Part shown: one piece after another, positions 2,567 through 24,537 of the stretch | Layout of the letters: each line of letters starts with the position of its first letter | How positions within the stretch are numbered: the stretch's first letter is position 1 | IMG/VR virus record: IMGVR_UViG_3300034103_001610 | Location: 1 to 24,704 of that record | Strand: one strand, 5' to 3' | Length of the DNA: 24,704 nucleotides | Origin: a virus | The notes under the pieces: model-generated | Told to the model about the DNA's origin: nothing | The model's database searches: none | The model's input: only the letters and a program-made list of their open reading frames with translations | Program-made: the position numbers and the translations under genes

Positions 2567-2797
2567 ATGAAAATGTATCCAGAACTTTCAGATCTCCAAA
2601 GATTTACAGTAGAAGAGTTTCAAGCAGATTTTGACAACTTAATACAAAGAGTAGAGAATGGTGAATCTTTTATTATTACTGATGGAGAAAGAAACGCAGT
2701 GATAGTTCCATACAATGAAACCATAAACTTTGAAATAGAATCTCGTGTGAGTGACGAACTGATACGCATTCATACCGATCACGAAGAAGGTTCGTGA
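2567..2797 (+). CDS. Phd/YefM-like antitoxin without a partner toxin
   Basis: This 76-residue protein matches the Phd/YefM fold: an N-terminal part where a beta strand leads into a helix (RFTVEEFQADFDNLIQRVEN, about 12-31), then a strand pair with the characteristic sense GESFIITDGERNAVIVPY at 32-49, then an acidic C-terminal tail. Members of this family bind DNA as dimers and neutralise toxins such as Doc or YoeB through the C-terminus. No toxin gene adjoins it; tRNA genes flank it on both sides. It may counter a host toxin or act as a regulator only. Start at 2567 (ATG), with a second in-frame ATG at 2573. Confidence 0.7.
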   Translation: MKMYPELSDLQRFTVEEFQADFDNLIQRVENGESFIITDGERNAVIVPYNETINFEIESRVSDELIRIHTDHEEGS

Positions 2798-2804
2798 TTT
2801 TATT

Positions 2805-2876
2805 GGGAGTATAGCTTAATGGTTAGAGCGGGCTCCTTATAAGGGCTTAGTCTGGGTTCAACTCCCAGTATTCCCA
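2805..2876 (+). tRNA. tRNA-Ile (UAU)
   Basis: The acceptor GGGAGTA (2805-2811) pairs with TATTCCC (2869-2875) with one G-T pair. The anticodon stem GGCTC/GGGCT holds the loop CTTATAA with anticodon TAT, read as Ile for AUA. The T arm is CTGGG/CCCAG. AUA is used in the AT-rich glycan genes, so a tRNA that reads it directly makes sense. CCA is not encoded. Confidence 0.9.
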
Positions 2877-2880
2877 TCAT

Positions 2881-2954
2881 GCAGGTTTAGCTCTCTGGTT
2901 GAAAGCACCGAACTCATAATTCGGCTAAGGTGGGTTCGATCCCCACAACCTGCA
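2881..2954 (+). tRNA. tRNA with CAU anticodon (Met, or Ile2 if lysidinylated)
   Basis: The acceptor GCAGGTT (2881-2887) pairs with AACCTGC (2947-2953). The anticodon stem CCGAA/TTCGG holds the loop CTCATAA, and the T arm GTGGG/CCCAC has loop TTCGATC. The first acceptor pair is G-C, so it is not a typical initiator. CAT could mean elongator Met, or Ile reading AUA after lysidine modification. Acceptor and anticodon alone do not settle it for me. Confidence 0.92.
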
Positions 2955-2979
2955 TAGGACAGAAACAACACTGTCCACC

Positions 2980-3008
2980 TTGACTTCTCCAAGTCAAACC
3001 CTTATAAT
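2980..3008 (+). promoter_or_regulatory. sigma70-type promoter for genes at 3031-3757
   Basis: TTGACT (2980-2985) and TATAAT (3003-3008) are spaced by 17 nt. The predicted start near 3015 gives a leader of about 16 nt before the ATG at 3031, which argues against an in-frame upstream start at 2980 inside this promoter. Confidence 0.8.
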
Positions 3009-3030
3009 ACTAAGGTCAACATTCAAAACA

Positions 3031-3246
3031 ATGACTCTTACAGCAAAATTCAAGAAAGACGTTTCCACTCTTCGTGGCGCAGCAAACGGTGAATTCTACC
3101 TTGATGTAAAGAATCCGAAACTCTACAAAAAGGTTCGTCGCTTTTACGAAAACGAAGGTGTAGTATTTTCTGGTGATCCTCTGGATGATTATGAAATGCT
3201 TATGGAATATGTTCTTGCTGATCTCGAATCTGTTGAGGTTGCATGA
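3031..3246 (+). CDS. Small hypothetical protein (71 aa)
   Basis: A small charged protein (starts MTLTAKFKKD; contains KNPKLYKKVRRFYENEGVVF at about 28-47, then an acidic end). A longer frame from 2980 would overlap a consensus promoter, so the ATG at 3031 is preferred. The stop TGA overlaps the next ATG by 4 nt. I recognise no domain. Its position right behind a strong host-type promoter suggests early expression and perhaps a host-takeover role, which is inference. Confidence 0.7.
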   Translation: MTLTAKFKKDVSTLRGAANGEFYLDVKNPKLYKKVRRFYENEGVVFSGDPLDDYEMLMEYVLADLESVEVA

Positions 3247-19152: not shown

Positions 19153-20619
19153 ATGAAACTCAAACAACTGATGCTCGCACCTGTTGCTCTGGGAATGGTT
19201 GCTCCTGTTGCTGCGAATGCCGCAGATCTGAATATGGCAGCAGTCAACCAATACTCTTCTGAGCAGGTTACAAGCATCTCTCAACTTTCTGATGTGCAAC
19301 CCACCGATTGGGCATATCAGGCACTCAGCAACCTTGTAGAGCGTTATGGTTGCGTTGCTGGTTATCCTAATGGCACCTACGGTGGTGGCAAGGCAATGAC
19401 TCGTTATGAGGCAGCAGCACTTCTAAATGCTTGCCTTGACCGCGTAACCGAAAACACCGATGAACTCAAGCGTCTTGCTGATGAGTTCCGCAATGAACTG
19501 ACTGTTATTCAGGGTTCTGTTGCTAAACTGGAAGCACAGGTTGGTCAACTTGAAGCAACTCAATTCTCCACCACTACCAAACTGCGTGGTGAAGCAAACT
19601 TCGTTCTCGGTGGTGTTCCTGGTTATGATACCAAAGGTGGTGATAGCACTCGCACCGCATTTAATTATGATCTGCGTCTGAACCTGGATACTTCATTTAC
19701 TGGCAAAGATCTTCTCAAGACTCGTTTGCGTTCTGCTAACTTCAGCAGTGATCCTTTTGGTTCTAGCTCTTCTCTGTTCAAACTGGATAAAGCAGACAAT
19801 ACCTCTAGTGAAGTTGGTAACAACGTAGTTATTGATCGTCTGTACTATCAGTTCCCTGCTTTCAATAACAAAGCAACTCTGACTGCTGGTGCTGCAGTTC
19901 GTAACACTGAGATTGCCTGGATGCCTTCTGCATATAAGTCCGGTATTCTTGACTTCTTTGCTGTTGCTGGTACTCCTGGTGTCTATAACAAGGCAACTGG
20001 TGCTGGTTTTGGTGTTCAGTATGGTAAGAAAGGTCTTGTTGCTGGCGTAAACTATGTTGCTCAAGCAGGTCAAGATAGTTCCAAGGGTGAGTTTGATGAG
20101 ACTGGTGCTCTGAACACTCTTGCACAAATCGGTTATCGTGGTAAGAACTGGGGTGCTGCATTTGGTTATCGTTACGGTACTGAAGGCACTCGCGTCCGTA
20201 CTTATAATGGTCTGGATGGTTCTTCTGGTACTCTGGTTCCTGGTCAAACATCTAACGGTTATGCTCTGAATGCATACTGGCAACCCACCAAGTCTGGTAT
20301 TGTTCCCTCTGTTTCTGCAGGTTATGGTTGGAATACCGTAAGTGGCACTCCTAGTTCTGCTACCGATAGTCAGTCTTGGTTTGCTGGACTTCAATGGGAA
20401 GATGTGTTTGTTGGTGGTAATTCCGCTGGTGTTGCTATTGGTCAAGCACCTACTGGTGAAAACCTTGAGAAGGCAACAATGCTTGAAGTCTTCTACAAGT
20501 ATCAAGTATCTGATAACATCAGTGTTACTCCCGCTATCATCTATGGCAGTGACAACCAGCGTCTTGCTGATAACTCCTCTAACTGGGGTGGTGTAATCCA
20601 GACCACTTTCCGTTTCTGA
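19153..20619 (+). CDS. Cyanobacterial-type outer-membrane porin (SLH plus beta-barrel, OprB-like)
   Basis: The 488-residue protein begins with a signal peptide (MKLKQLMLAPVALGMVAPV, cleavage after ANA near residue 23). Next is one SLH domain (about 44-98, with LSDVQPTDWAYQAL and GCVAGYPNGTYGG and TRYEAA), which binds the cell-wall polysaccharide, then a coiled coil (about 100-136) and a beta-barrel ending in the C-terminal phenylalanine (TTFRF) needed for outer-membrane insertion. The layout is that of host porins of the SomA/OprB type, which pass small solutes. The codon use (CTG, GCT, CGT) looks more host-like than that of the glycan genes. The start shares 16 nt (TTTTATGAAACTCAAA) with pstS and lacks a Shine-Dalgarno site. 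It ends in a strong terminator. Confidence 0.88.
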   Translation: MKLKQLMLAPVALGMVAPVAANAADLNMAAVNQYSSEQVTSISQLSDVQPTDWAYQALSNLVERYGCVAGYPNGTYGGGKAMTRYEAAALLNACLDRVTENTDELKRLADEFRNELTVIQGSVAKLEAQVGQLEATQFSTTTKLRGEANFVLGGVPGYDTKGGDSTRTAFNYDLRLNLDTSFTGKDLLKTRLRSANFSSDPFGSSSSLFKLDKADNTSSEVGNNVVIDRLYYQFPAFNNKATLTAGAAVRNTEIAWMPSAYKSGILDFFAVAGTPGVYNKATGAGFGVQYGKKGLVAGVNYVAQAGQDSSKGEFDETGALNTLAQIGYRGKNWGAAFGYRYGTEGTRVRTYNGLDGSSGTLVPGQTSNGYALNAYWQPTKSGIVPSVSAGYGWNTVSGTPSSATDSQSWFAGLQWEDVFVGGNSAGVAIGQAPTGENLEKATMLEVFYKYQVSDNISVTPAIIYGSDNQRLADNSSNWGGVIQTTFRF

Positions 20620-20764: not shown

Positions 20765-21727
20765 ATGAAACTCAAAAATTTTATTGCTGTTGGTCTGGTT
20801 GTTGCTCCTGCTGCTGCTCTTGCTGGATCTACTTTGAATGGTGCTGGTGCCACCTTCCCTGCACCAATTTATCAACGCTGGTTCCAAGATTATGCACGAA
20901 CTTCTGGGAGTAGGGTTAATTATCAGTCCGTTGGTTCTGGCGCTGGTGTTCGTCAATTTATTGCGGGCACAGTTGACTTCGGAGCAAGCGATGAACCAAT
21001 CAAACCAGCAGAAGCAGCAAAGGTAAAGCGTGGCGTTGTTCAAATTCCAATGGTTGGTGGAACGATTGCTGTTGCTTATAACAAGCCTGAATGCAAACTG
21101 AAACTGACCCAGAAGCAAACCGTTGATGTTTTCTCTGGACGCATTAAGGATTGGAAAGCACTTGGTTGTGCTGCTGGTCCTATTCAGGTAGTGTATCGTT
21201 CTGATGGTTCTGGAACCACTTATGCGTTCACTAACTCTCTGGATGCTTTTGGTGGTTGGAAACCTGGCGTTGGTAAGGCAGTCAAGTGGCCTACTGGTGT
21301 TGGTTCAAAAGGTAATGAAGGTGTTGCTGGAACCATCAAGAACACTGCTGGTGCTATTGGTTATGTGAACACTGGGTTTGTTCGTGCTAACAAACTCCAA
21401 GCCGCTGTACTTCAAAACAAGGCAGGTAAGTTCGTTGGACCTTCTGCTGTGACTGGTTCCGCTGCTCTGAATGGTATTACTCTGGATGCAAACCTTGCTG
21501 GTGAGAACCCCAATCCTGCTGGTGTAAATGCATATCCTATTTCTACTCTGACTTGGATCCTTGCATATAAGACTGGTAATGGTGCAAAGGCAGATGATAT
21601 CCGTGCTGCTATCAATTATGCTCTAAGCACCAAGGCACAATCTATTGCTGATGACCTTGGATATGTTCCTCTTTCTGGAAGTGTTCTGAACAAAGCACGA
21701 CTTGCAGTTGGTCGTATTGGTCAGTAA
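20765..21727 (+). CDS. pstS: PstS, periplasmic phosphate-binding protein
   Basis: PstS captures inorganic phosphate and hands it to the PstCA-B importer of the host. The 320-residue protein has a signal peptide (about 1-20, ending AALA), then LNGAGATFPAPIYQRW (24-39), GAGVRQFIAG and FGASDEPI (about 58-80), and YRSDGSGTTYAFTN for phosphate binding. The rest matches the Venus-flytrap fold and the full length suggests activity. It is preceded by Pho boxes, so it is likely induced by phosphate shortage. It ends 31 nt before a terminator. Well known as an auxiliary gene of cyanophages. Confidence 0.95.
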   Translation: MKLKNFIAVGLVVAPAAALAGSTLNGAGATFPAPIYQRWFQDYARTSGSRVNYQSVGSGAGVRQFIAGTVDFGASDEPIKPAEAAKVKRGVVQIPMVGGTIAVAYNKPECKLKLTQKQTVDVFSGRIKDWKALGCAAGPIQVVYRSDGSGTTYAFTNSLDAFGGWKPGVGKAVKWPTGVGSKGNEGVAGTIKNTAGAIGYVNTGFVRANKLQAAVLQNKAGKFVGPSAVTGSAALNGITLDANLAGENPNPAGVNAYPISTLTWILAYKTGNGAKADDIRAAINYALSTKAQSIADDLGYVPLSGSVLNKARLAVGRIGQ

Positions 21728-21758
21728 ATCCTGATCAAAATAAGTATAAATGACTGCG

Positions 21759-21786
21759 AGGGGTGCTTGACACCCCTTTATTTTTC
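21759..21786 (+). terminator. Rho-independent terminator after pstS
   Basis: GGGGTG (21760-21765) pairs with CACCCC (21771-21776), loop CTTGA, followed by a T-rich stretch TTTATTTTT. Confidence 0.88.
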
Positions 21787-21795
21787 CTATATAAT
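21767..21795 (+). promoter_or_regulatory. Consensus sigma70 promoter of the hli operon, inside the terminator hairpin
   Basis: TTGACA (21767-21772) and TATAAT (21790-21795) are exact consensus boxes spaced by 17 nt. The -35 is made of the terminator loop and its 3' stem. A start near 21802 gives a leader of about 21 nt before hli. Confidence 0.88.
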
Positions 21796-21822
21796 TGTGT
21801 AACAATTCTTAACGAATGTACA

Positions 21823-22017
21823 ATGACTGTAACAACTAATGAGTTTGGGCAACAGAATATGTTTGCCAAAGAGCCAACCATGTATTATGAGAACTATGGT
21901 ATGCTCACCCCCAATCAAGTAAAGGAGCGTACTAATGGACGTTGGGCAATGGTCGGTTTTGTTGCTGGGATCATTTCTTATCTTAGCACTGGCAACTTCT
22001 TCTTCGGTGTCTTCTGA
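21823..22017 (+). CDS. hli: High-light-inducible protein (HLIP)
   Basis: The 64-residue protein belongs to the one-helix chlorophyll-binding family. Its core KERTNGRWAMVGFVAG (about 34-49) has the ERxNGRxAMxGF pattern for chlorophyll-binding helix formation, followed by a TM end with TGNFFFGVF. It protects the photosystems by quenching excess light energy and, with phage infection, may keep photosynthesis running. I chose ATG 21823, behind the promoter at 21767; an in-frame start at 21763 would lie inside the terminator. Confidence 0.95.
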   Translation: MTVTTNEFGQQNMFAKEPTMYYENYGMLTPNQVKERTNGRWAMVGFVAGIISYLSTGNFFFGVF

Positions 22018-22103
22018 TGATTGAAGCACTTTGGACAGTAACCACAGTTGCATTTTTTGTCATTCTGGGTTATGCTGTTGATCAACTTTCGGAAACTTAT
22101 TAA
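22017..22103 (+). CDS. Tiny membrane peptide (28 aa)
   Basis: A 28-residue peptide with one transmembrane helix (MIEALWTVTTVAFFVILGYA, about 4-20), then a polar tail VDQLSETY. It sits between hli and the next gene: the first A of its ATG is the last base of the hli stop, and its own TAA overlaps the next ATG by one base (TAATG). Such tight packing makes it a real gene. It might be a partner of HLIPs in the membrane, which is inference. Confidence 0.55.
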   Translation: MIEALWTVTTVAFFVILGYAVDQLSETY

Positions 22104-22378
22104 TGACTGCTGGAATGCTTGGGCAATTTGCGATTGCCCTTGAAAAACTTGGATGGGACGCAAACGATGAACTATCAGTTGAAATCGGTGGTGTAGCAGT
22201 TACAGGAACTGCAACTCATCCAGATGCAAACCCAAAATGGGCAAAACCATTTGGAACAGTAACTTATCAGAACGATGCTTTTATTGTTATCAAAAATAAA
22301 ACCAGAAGTCCTATGGTTTTTTCCCAACCTAATCCTGAACTTAAACAACAACACCCTTATCAAGGAGAAAACAAATGA
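22103..22378 (+). CDS. Hypothetical protein (91 aa) in the hli operon
   Basis: The 91-residue protein has two parts: an N-terminal helix with LGQFAIALEKLGWDANDELSVE (about 6-27) and a beta-rich part containing the sequences IGGVAVTGTATH and FGTVTYQNDAFIVI, then a polar proline-rich tail. No signal peptide or transmembrane helix is seen. It overlaps the gene upstream by one base and the second hli by 4 nt, so it belongs to the operon. I do not recognise the family. Confidence 0.7.
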   Translation: MTAGMLGQFAIALEKLGWDANDELSVEIGGVAVTGTATHPDANPKWAKPFGTVTYQNDAFIVIKNKTRSPMVFSQPNPELKQQHPYQGENK

Positions 22379-22494
22379 ACAAAATTTTTACCGAAAAAGC
22401 AGAGCGTATTAATGGATGGGCTGCAATGATTGGAATCGTAGCTGCCATGGGTTCTTATCTCACTACTGGGCAAATTATTCCCGGCGTATTCTGA
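22375..22494 (+). CDS. hli: Second, minimal high-light-inducible protein (39 aa)
   Basis: The 39-residue protein has the HLIP core EKAERINGWAAMIGIVAAMG (about 7-26) and ends TGQIIPGVF, like the upstream hli. It lacks the N-terminal extension of the first copy, so it is close to the minimal form. A strong ribosome site AAGGAG (22362-22367) precedes the ATG, which overlaps the upstream stop by 4 nt. A duplication of hli with separation by two small genes is likely. Confidence 0.85.
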   Translation: MNKIFTEKAERINGWAAMIGIVAAMGSYLTTGQIIPGVF

Positions 22495-22505
22495 TGGAGG
22501 TTAAA

Positions 22506-23033
22506 ATGCGTAAAGAACAATATCAAATTCCTCAAGTAGAATTTGTATTTCGTGAAAACGGTGAATTTGTAAAACGTACCTCTTCAGAACTTTTTAATGA
22601 AAAGCGCGTTGTCATTTTTAGTTTGCCTGGTGCTTTCACTCCTACTTGCAGTGCCTATCAGTTACCTGGATTCGAAGAGAAATACGACGACTTTATTGGT
22701 AGTGGCATCGACAATATTTACTGCATCTCTGTTAATGATGGGTTTGTGATGAATGCTTGGGCTCAAGATCAGAACATCAAGAATGTAAAACTGATCCCTG
22801 ATGGTAATGCATATTTCACACGTTCTATGGGTATGCTCGTCAATAAGTCTAATCTTGGTTTCGGTGATCGCTCTTGGCGTTATGCTGCGGTCGTGGATAA
22901 TGGAATCATCGAAAAACTATTCATTGAGGCAGGTCAGCGTGACAATGCGGACAGTGACCCTTACGAAGAAACTACTCCTGAGAATGTTCTGGATTACGTG
23001 AAGTCTACAGTACGAGAAACAGTTACTGCATGA
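22506..23033 (+). CDS. Peroxiredoxin (Prx5 / type II)
   Basis: Peroxiredoxins reduce hydrogen peroxide and organic peroxides using a peroxidatic cysteine. This 175-residue protein has PGAFTPTCS at 41-49 with C48 as that residue, and GDRSWRYAAVVDNG further on with the conserved arginine. The Prx5 features ISVNDGFVMNAWA are present. Reduction is likely by host glutaredoxin or thioredoxin. I chose ATG 22506 because GGAGG lies 5 nt upstream; an in-frame ATG at 22494 is also possible and would overlap the hli stop. A terminator follows immediately. Confidence 0.9.
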   Translation: MRKEQYQIPQVEFVFRENGEFVKRTSSELFNEKRVVIFSLPGAFTPTCSAYQLPGFEEKYDDFIGSGIDNIYCISVNDGFVMNAWAQDQNIKNVKLIPDGNAYFTRSMGMLVNKSNLGFGDRSWRYAAVVDNGIIEKLFIEAGQRDNADSDPYEETTPENVLDYVKSTVRETVTA

Positions 23034-23098: not shown

Positions 23099-23770
23099 AT
23101 GACCCTAGATCTTCATAACTTTTTTAAGTTTTATGATGATGGTAATGCGAATCATGTAGCAGCAGTTCAGTGGTTAGAGGATAACCTACCTGCTCAATTT
23201 CTAGATGATTCAGAGACCGATTGGATTGGTATCTTCAGAACAAAACCACCAACTCCAGCGGTTCTTGCAGTCCCATACTTTAATCAAGTAGATAACTATA
23301 GAGATGCACATAGAACTTGTAACAGTTCATCGTGTGCTATGTGCCTTGCTTTCCTCAAGCCAGGAAGCATTAAAGGTGATGACGAATACGTTAAGAAAGT
23401 ATTTGCGATTGGCGATACAACTGACCATGCCGTACAGACGAAAGTTCTGGCAGGTTATGGAATTAAGTCACACTTTAGTTACAATCTTTCTTTTGCTGAT
23501 ATTGATAAGAGTCTTGATGCTGGGAAGCCTGTCGTTATTGGTATCCTGCATCGCGGTTCTTTATCTGCACCTACTGGTGGGCACATGTGTGTTGTAATCG
23601 GTAAGACTCCTGATGGTAAGGGATATTATGTAAATGATCCTTATGGTTCTCTCAATGATAACTATACTGGTCCAGTGACAAATGGTAAGAAAACCATTTA
23701 CACCAAAGCAGTTCTCAAGCATCGCTGGTGTCCAGGAGGAAACGATGGATGGGGCAGAATCTTCGACTAA
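23099..23770 (+). CDS. C39-like cysteine peptidase with shared N-terminal module
   Basis: The 223-residue protein has two parts. Residues 4-47 (LHNFFKFYDDGNANHV...) are a module shared with the lysozyme at 23869. Residues 57-223 form a C39-type papain-like domain: Q63 for the oxyanion hole, C74 in RTCNSSSC, H162 in GGHMCVVIG and D180 in YYVNDPYG. Such domains cleave peptides, including cell-wall ones or leader peptides. With a lysozyme next to it and a late promoter, a role in host lysis or as part of the virion entry machinery is likely. The exact bond cleaved is unknown. Confidence 0.75.
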   Translation: MTLDLHNFFKFYDDGNANHVAAVQWLEDNLPAQFLDDSETDWIGIFRTKPPTPAVLAVPYFNQVDNYRDAHRTCNSSSCAMCLAFLKPGSIKGDDEYVKKVFAIGDTTDHAVQTKVLAGYGIKSHFSYNLSFADIDKSLDAGKPVVIGILHRGSLSAPTGGHMCVVIGKTPDGKGYYVNDPYGSLNDNYTGPVTNGKKTIYTKAVLKHRWCPGGNDGWGRIFD

Positions 23771-23882
23771 TTTTAAAAGAAAGATCCTTAAAGTAATTAA
23801 GGATCTTACGAATACGGGCAAACATAAGGAAGCAAACGATCTTTATCAAAAGTATTTCGGAGGAACAAATGGCAAGAATTGA
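23745..23882 (+). CDS. Small helical protein bridging peptidase and lysozyme (45 aa)
   Basis: It starts MDGAESSTNF and continues with lysine-rich helices (KRKILKVIKDL, then KHKEANDLYQKYF). A strong ribosome site AGGAGG (23734-23739) lies 5 nt upstream. It overlaps the peptidase by 26 nt and the lysozyme by 14 nt, which suggests translational coupling. An 11-bp hairpin (23781-23791 with 23797-23807) lies inside it. Function unknown. Confidence 0.65.
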   Translation: MDGAESSTNFKRKILKVIKDLTNTGKHKEANDLYQKYFGGTNGKN

Positions 23883-24537
23883 TTTACACAACTTTTTCAA
23901 ATTTTATGATGAAAAAAATCCTAACCATGTTAAGGCAGTTCAGTGGTTAGAAGACAACCTACCAGTCAAATATCTAGAAGATAACATTGATTGGGCAGAG
24001 ATTTATCGCGGAAAAAAGACTAGTGCTGCACCAGCCCCTGCCGCTGCTGCAGCTCCTGTAACAGGTGGCGATGATGTTCCACAAATTGGCATCAAATTAA
24101 TTAAAGAGTTTGAAGGATGTCATTTAAAAGCATATCCTGATCCTCTGACTGGTGGACTTCCAATCACAATTGGTTGGGGTTCTACCCGTAGGAAGGATGG
24201 GTCACACTTCAAACTAGGTGATACTCTCACCCAACAAGAAGCAGATACACTTCTAATTGAACAATGTAAGAATGAGTTTCTTCCTGCCCTTCGCAAAATC
24301 CCACATTGGAGTGAAATGTCAGATGGAAAAAGAGGCGCTCTGCTCAGCTTTGCTTATAATCTTGGTGCCGGTTTTTACGGTGGTGATAACTTTAATACTA
24401 TTACTAAACGCCTGAAGAATAAGGAGTGGGATTTAGTTCCCGATGCTCTTTATCTCTACCGCAATCCTGGTTCAAATGTAGAGGCAGGTCTTGCACGTAG
24501 AAGAAAGGCAGAAGGTGAAGCATGGAAAAAAGGATAA
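23869..24537 (+). CDS. GH24 phage lysozyme with shared N-terminal module
   Basis: The 222-residue protein has three parts. Residues 5-48 (DLHNFFKFYDEKNPNHV...) are the same module as in the upstream peptidase. Residues 50-67 form an alanine-proline linker. Residues 72-222 are a GH24 muramidase with catalytic E82 (in KEFEGCHLKAY), D91 and T100 in TIGWG, and a complete C-terminal domain with ALLSFAYNLGAG. It cleaves the beta-1,4 bond of peptidoglycan between MurNAc and GlcNAc. Ribosome site GGAGG is at 23860-23864. No signal or anchor is seen, so it needs a holin or works on the virion. Confidence 0.9.
   Translation: MARIDLHNFFKFYDEKNPNHVKAVQWLEDNLPVKYLEDNIDWAEIYRGKKTSAAPAPAAAAAPVTGGDDVPQIGIKLIKEFEGCHLKAYPDPLTGGLPITIGWGSTRRKDGSHFKLGDTLTQQEADTLLIEQCKNEFLPALRKIPHWSEMSDGKRGALLSFAYNLGAGFYGGDNFNTITKRLKNKEWDLVPDALYLYRNPGSNVEAGLARRRKAEGEAWKKG

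Follow-up and report, generated by a model that had tools for sequence, protein, structure and literature searches.

A conserved 28-residue gene joined end-to-start to hli in cyanophages, and an HLR1-like repeat at the hli promoter

The hli gene is a core gene of cyanophages, hli03 being named as such for the marine T4-like cyanophages in the excerpted text of Sullivan et al. (2010; PMC3037559). We analysed the whole IMG/VR record IMGVR_UViG_3300034103_001610 (24,704 bases, hereafter the window), which, judged from its own genes, appears to be a fragment of a T4-like cyanophage (cyanomyovirus). Its gene order is pstS, hli (64 aa), pep28 (28 aa), a gene for a 91-aa protein, a second hli (39 aa) and peroxiredoxin (prx), with the following features:

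20765-21727: pstS, upstream of the first hli
21758-21778, + strand: terminator-like hairpin (stem 8, loop 5, T-rich tail) that encloses the -35 box
21767-21795, + strand: sigma-70 consensus promoter, TTGACA-17-TATAAT, 12/12, with the -10 at 21790-21795
21799-21816, + strand: HLR1-like direct repeat (RpaB-type box), GTAACAATTCTTAACGAA, directly 3' of the -10, 3 mismatches
21823-22017, + strand: hli, 64-aa HLIP with the motif ERTNGRWAMVG (PHROG 178, E 1.7e-27)
22017-22103, + strand: pep28, predicted 28-aa single-helix membrane peptide of a new, unannotated family
22103-22378, + strand: 91-aa protein, function unknown (PHROG 475, E 6e-29, residues 8-85)
22375-22494, + strand: short hli, 39 aa, motif ERINGWAAMIG, in which W replaces the usual R (PHROG 178, E 4.3e-20)
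22494-23033, + strand: peroxiredoxin, 179 aa (PHROG 2281, E 1.4e-75; Pfam Redoxin, E 1.1e-24)

An earlier note on this DNA had described an operon of small genes that touch or overlap, and the coordinates, verified on the sequence, bear this out: hli and pep28 share 1 nt (TGATG), pep28 and the 91-aa frame 1 nt (TAATG), the 91-aa frame and the short hli 4 nt (ATGA), and the short hli and the peroxiredoxin gene 1 nt (TGATG). The peroxiredoxin frame scores 87.4 bits against Pfam Redoxin, exceeding the curated cut-off of 26.6. No RNA family was found with Rfam between positions 20500 and 24000 of the window. Adjoining pstS is a gene for an OprB-type porin with an SLH domain (19153-20619), upstream of which runs a long series of putative glycosyltransferase- and epimerase-like genes, recognized by eye. 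At 23099-23770 a C39-like peptidase is encoded (Pfam) and at 23869-24537 a second, lysozyme-like protein; the two have a common N-terminal stretch (DLHNFFKFYD..N.NHV.AVQWLEDNLP) and different catalytic domains.

A 28-codon gene downstream of hli

The pep28 frame is a genuine protein-coding gene, length-locked at 28 aa. Used alone as a query (E up to 10, each match spanning at least 80% of the query), the peptide matched 143 of 50,697 phage records, all cyanophages, and the family consensus matched 152 of 50,697, all of them Synechococcus phages or cyanophages and none of the 152 named Prochlorococcus. A profile was run against 186 sources, namely the window and loci L001-L187 minus the window copies L006 and L007. 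It returned 179 copies, every one on the strand expected; they fall into 124 distinct contexts and comprise 117 different DNA and 91 different protein sequences, and 178 of the 179 have an ATG start and exactly 28 codons. Purifying selection is indicated by a dN/dS of 0.29 in frame, where the two frame shifts give 1.16 and 2.33 (116 distinct sequences, 2,757 pairs in the usable divergence range, leaving out L017, a 29-aa variant with another start), and 53% of the nucleotide differences sit at third codon positions. The window copies and the later, overlapping re-fetches (L192-L271) were left out of the neighbour, selection and promoter counts. Cyanophages, in other words, carry an overlooked and strongly conserved gene for a 28-residue predicted membrane protein that is joined end-to-start to hli.

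The earlier note had taken two genes of the operon to be too short for standard calling. This holds for pep28, which has no CDS of its own in any of 24 GenBank phage loci (L001-L005, L169-L187), and mostly fails for the short hli, many copies of which are annotated, that of P-SSM2 included. In phage B23 the pep28 frame is without a normal start and stop and reads through into the short hli; of decay and fusion, this may be decay instead of a meaningful fusion.

M1, L17 and T27 do not vary among 90 distinct peptides, F13, E26 and Y28 hardly do, and the conserved C-terminus is polar. The peptide has one hydrophobic stretch, with a best 19-residue hydropathy mean of 1.9, which is at membrane-helix level; helical periodicity of the conservation is marginal (p 0.05). 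No convincing match to it was obtained in Pfam, NCBIfam, PHROG or PDB, and it has neither the HLIP chlorophyll-binding motif ExxNGRxAMxG nor a match to PHROG 178.

The small frames and their order are conserved in other cyanophages, as the earlier note's reading of the operon presupposed. An hli lies within 60 nt upstream of pep28 in 117 of the 124 distinct contexts, 63 of them sharing the 1-nt overlap of the window, and the gene directly downstream is petF in 79, hli in 16, PHROG 475 in 15 and prx in 2, with none within 60 nt in 12, these neighbour counts being biased in that most loci were located via hli or PHROG 475. Of the 20 loci located via pep28 itself (L004, L169-L187), 19 have hli as the immediate upstream neighbour, and the remaining one, RB11-B, has one short ORF between hli and pep28. 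Some copies of pep28 are separated from hli by gaps of 9-14 nt and are still conserved. At the pep28/petF junction a TAATG overlap is found in some contexts, and in 2 of the 124 petF stands upstream of pep28 instead. Among 80 hli-seeded loci pep28 is present in 76 and petF in 47, and pep28 is also present in 78 of 80 PHROG 475-seeded loci. The recurring order is hli-pep28-(petF)-(PHROG 475)-hli-(prx); its commonest full form, hli-pep28-petF-PHROG475-hli-prx, accounts for 44 of the 124 contexts and the exact order of the window, without petF, for 12, with 13 contexts too near a contig end for the order to be judged. A petF gene may be located elsewhere in the genome of the window phage, beyond the fragment.

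The two hli copies and the 91-residue protein

The HLIP motif is ExxNGRxAMxG, with an arginine. Both hli copies of the window belong to the cyanophage hli family (PHROG 178; T4-GC 267, 'hli03'), accounts of which in the excerpted text of PMC3037559 do not describe pep28 or the adjoining promoter box. The 64-aa copy is an HLIP by its PHROG 178 match together with the motif, and scores below the family cut-off of Pfam PF00504; the motif arginine is present in all 111 distinct long copies. The 39-aa copy is an HLIP by its PHROG 178 profile, and the motif arginine is absent from it (NGW, not NGR). Of 74 distinct short copies, 48 have tryptophan in place of this arginine and 24 retain it, and because the residue varies among them it was not treated as defining for the short HLIP sub-class. 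What had been called a minimal 39-residue hli is an HLIP by profile, though not an exceptional one, as 67 of the 74 short copies are 35-39 aa long. The arginine-less short HLIPs and the arginine-keeping long ones appear as if meant to pair unequally.

PHROG 475, to which the 91-aa protein belongs, is a cyanophage family that joins the cassette often, not always. It occurs in 407 phage records, and in the 17 phages where both positions are visible it adjoins pep28/hli in 8 (S-RIM8, S-RIM50, S-WAM1, S-WAM2, S-H9-1, S-H9-2, DSL-LC02 and S-RSM4) and is over 5 kb distant in 9 (S-SRM01, Bellamy, S-SM2, RB11-B, RN05-S, S-B05, S-RIM2, S-B64 and S-H35). Its AlphaFold model (mean pLDDT 66, pTM 0.37) is too uncertain for a fold to be named, and a search of PDB sequences gave a chance hit only (E 0.63). 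Searching genome contigs with the 91-aa protein gave a sole match, JABXKB010000293.1, which is filed under a Lokiarchaeota MAG, encodes petF as well as PHROG 475 and has the appearance of cyanophage contamination.

The hli promoter and its HLR1-like repeat

The perfect sigma-70 consensus ahead of the first hli is typical of its relatives: of 116 distinct stretches upstream of hli, 97 have a promoter with at most 1 mismatch, versus 63 of 1000 random 150-mers. The hairpin that encloses the -35 box lies 3' of the preceding gene; terminator-like hairpins occur in this region at a similar level by chance, and a function for this one is only putative for that reason. A G-run is located just 5' of the -35 in 81 of 111 hli promoters.

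Directly 3' of the -10 lies a direct repeat that looks like HLR1, the RpaB site of host high-light genes. The consensus was that given in the excerpted text of PMC11633204, (G/T)TTACA(T/A)(T/A)NN(G/T)TTACA(T/A)(T/A), that is, two repeats 2 nt apart. With 3 mismatches the box of the window is among the weaker ones; in many relatives the repeat reads GTAACAGTTCTTTACAAA. A box with at most 3 mismatches is present in 106 of 111 hli promoters, a count from which 5 of the 116 upstreams were left out for lack of TATA(A/C)T, and none of 100 permuted motifs reached that number. Since some of the best matches in this count sit on the -35 box itself (position 17, 7/111), the reliable counts are those restricted to 40 nt from the -10, where the box is found in 93 of 98 hli promoters versus 10 of 175 other promoter-like sites. 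After removal of near-duplicates it is present in 18 of 20 hli promoters, versus 5.4% of shuffles. Two other readings of the repeat, as an NtcA site and as a Pho box, were not enriched (1 and 0, respectively, of the 20 non-redundant hli promoters). Four phages obtained for other purposes were examined as well: the first hli of P-HM2 and that of P-SSM2, both Prochlorococcus phages, each have a box with 1 mismatch, the first hli of ACG-2014a has one with 3 mismatches, and at the first hli of B23 none was found (best 5 mismatches).

A box is also present at 19 of 22 psbA promoters, where the repeat in many cases reads TATGATAAATAGGTAAACAAATGTTACG; most of these belong to one sequence cluster and the count is 5 of 12 among non-redundant promoters of the TATNNTAAATA class, for which reason the psbA box is taken as a lead only.

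In hosts, RpaB represses HLIP genes via HLR1 boxes near the start site, according to the excerpted texts of PMC6331805 and PMC11633204. The phage repeat resembles the HLR1/RpaB boxes of host hli and psbA in sequence and in its place near the transcription start, and differs in lying in phage promoters and in being known here from sequence. No description of HLR1/RpaB sites in cyanophages, nor of the pep28 peptide, was found in the open-access literature, to which the search was confined; the sole paper there that names HLR1 as well as cyanophages has HLR1 in its reference list alone, and four papers mention RpaB as well as cyanophages. The promoter scan of cyanophages by Sullivan et al. (2010) covered T4, Pho and NtcA promoters, RpaB being unmentioned in the available excerpts of that paper (PMC3037559). 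The box would offer a molecular reason for the light response of phage photosynthesis genes. Phage transcription in P-HM2, the same phage whose hli promoter carries a 1-mismatch box, was found to be far higher in light than in the dark, and host RpoD and CopG were suggested as possible mediators, in the excerpted text of Thompson et al. (2016; PMC5082946).

A proposed role for pep28 and its alternatives

Most likely, pep28 is a thylakoid helix made together with an HLIP in a light-stress operon, with the HLIP as its putative binding partner; to the proposal that it acts as a companion of the HLIP we assign a probability of roughly 0.45. The operon would comprise hli, pep28, petF ferredoxin in most relatives, PHROG 475, the short hli and peroxiredoxin under a sigma-70 promoter of its own. 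The overlap of hli and pep28 would couple translation of the peptide to that of the HLIP, and both products would insert into the thylakoid membrane, where pep28 may aid assembly of the HLIP on photosystem II intermediates. The infected cell would thereby keep its photosystems running, with ferredoxin and peroxiredoxin dealing with electrons and peroxides. Host RpaB, bound to the HLR1-like repeat 3' of the -10, would keep the operon repressed in low light and lift the repression under light stress, in parallel to its control of host hli genes. The wider claim, that the phage operon is wired into the host high-light regulon through an HLR1/RpaB-type operator at the hli promoter (perhaps also at psbA), and that it yields an HLIP coupled to a 28-aa thylakoid microprotein that, in Synechococcus phages, works within the HLIP complex, we put forward more tentatively still. 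As a conserved, unannotated helix on the hli message, pep28 makes a concrete candidate for a component so far missed, and one that is easily tagged and tested. Several observations count against its companionship with HLIPs, among them the absence from pep28 of the chlorophyll-binding motif, the marginal helical periodicity of its conservation, the state of the frame in B23 and the 3-mismatch box of the window. The hli gene occurs in 481 phage records, 27 of them named Prochlorococcus, versus the 152 with pep28, none so named, from which it follows that HLIPs can work without the peptide; moreover, the commonest downstream neighbour of pep28 is petF, not hli.

This last point would fit a membrane adaptor for electron flow with the phage ferredoxin, by which pep28, at photosystem I, NDH-1 or cytochrome b6f, would dock PetF or adjust the cyclic flow of electrons. 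The proximity of petF (present in 286 phage records) on either side of pep28, in some cases with overlapping codons, is in its favour, as is the precedent of SliP4, a small, RpaB-controlled, high-light-induced Synechocystis protein of 37 aa that joins NDH-1 to the photosystems (excerpted text of PMC12850537). SliP4 and pep28 are alike in being very small and set in a light-stress context, and pep28 differs in its phage origin and its length. The adjacency to hli is tighter than that to petF (117 versus 79 of 124), however, and in 33 of the 124 contexts hli, PHROG 475 or prx comes next downstream, which leaves an adaptor role unlikely, if still the leading alternative. Another reading has pep28 mimic or replace one of the small subunits of host photosynthetic complexes that consist of one helix, for instance Ycf12/Psb30 of photosystem II, which is a single hydrophobic helix of about 30 residues. 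Size and single helix agree, and 3 of 19 pep28 members match Pfam Ycf12 (PF05969), with a best E of 0.058; matches this weak are, however, expected by chance for hydrophobic helices, no Ycf12-type match was obtained in NCBIfam and a search of PDB chains with the family profile came up empty at E up to 10, so that we regard such mimicry as rather improbable.

The earlier note had proposed the 91-aa protein as the new HLIP partner, and 36 of 80 hli-seeded loci, together with 11 of the 19 loci L169-L187, do have its family within the cassette. Its wide occurrence, its distance from pep28/hli in 9 of 17 phages, a sequence without a long hydrophobic stretch and the low-confidence model make this proposal weak and distinctly improbable; being so often outside the cassette, PHROG 475 is a weaker candidate for an HLIP partner than pep28, which the earlier note had named only briefly and which we consider the better one. 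That pep28 is a small membrane-active toxin or a lysis-type peptide would suit a short, hydrophobic, phage-encoded product, and is very improbable in view of its conserved polar C-terminus and its location in a photoprotection operon, away from lysis genes. Least credible of all is a mere translational coupler or leader whose amino acids are irrelevant: start and stop codons do overlap at both ends of pep28 in the window, but the strong amino-acid conservation (dN/dS 0.29) largely refutes it, and the peptide is conserved even where it has no overlap with hli.

The hli clusters of Prochlorococcus phages hold other tiny hydrophobic frames of 24-42 aa, some of them unannotated (positions 834-1795 of the P-SSM2 locus L189 and 2567-3075 of the P-HM2 locus L190), one pair of which is alike in P-SSM2 and P-HM2 (MYQLIFVAA... 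and MIYQIAFAC...). Small poly-Asp proteins with a similar end (..DDDD..GGG..PAY/PVY..) are also encoded near hli in S-SM2 (L004, 3029-3175), P-SSM2 (L189, 1290-1418) and P-HM2 (L190, 2715-2891).
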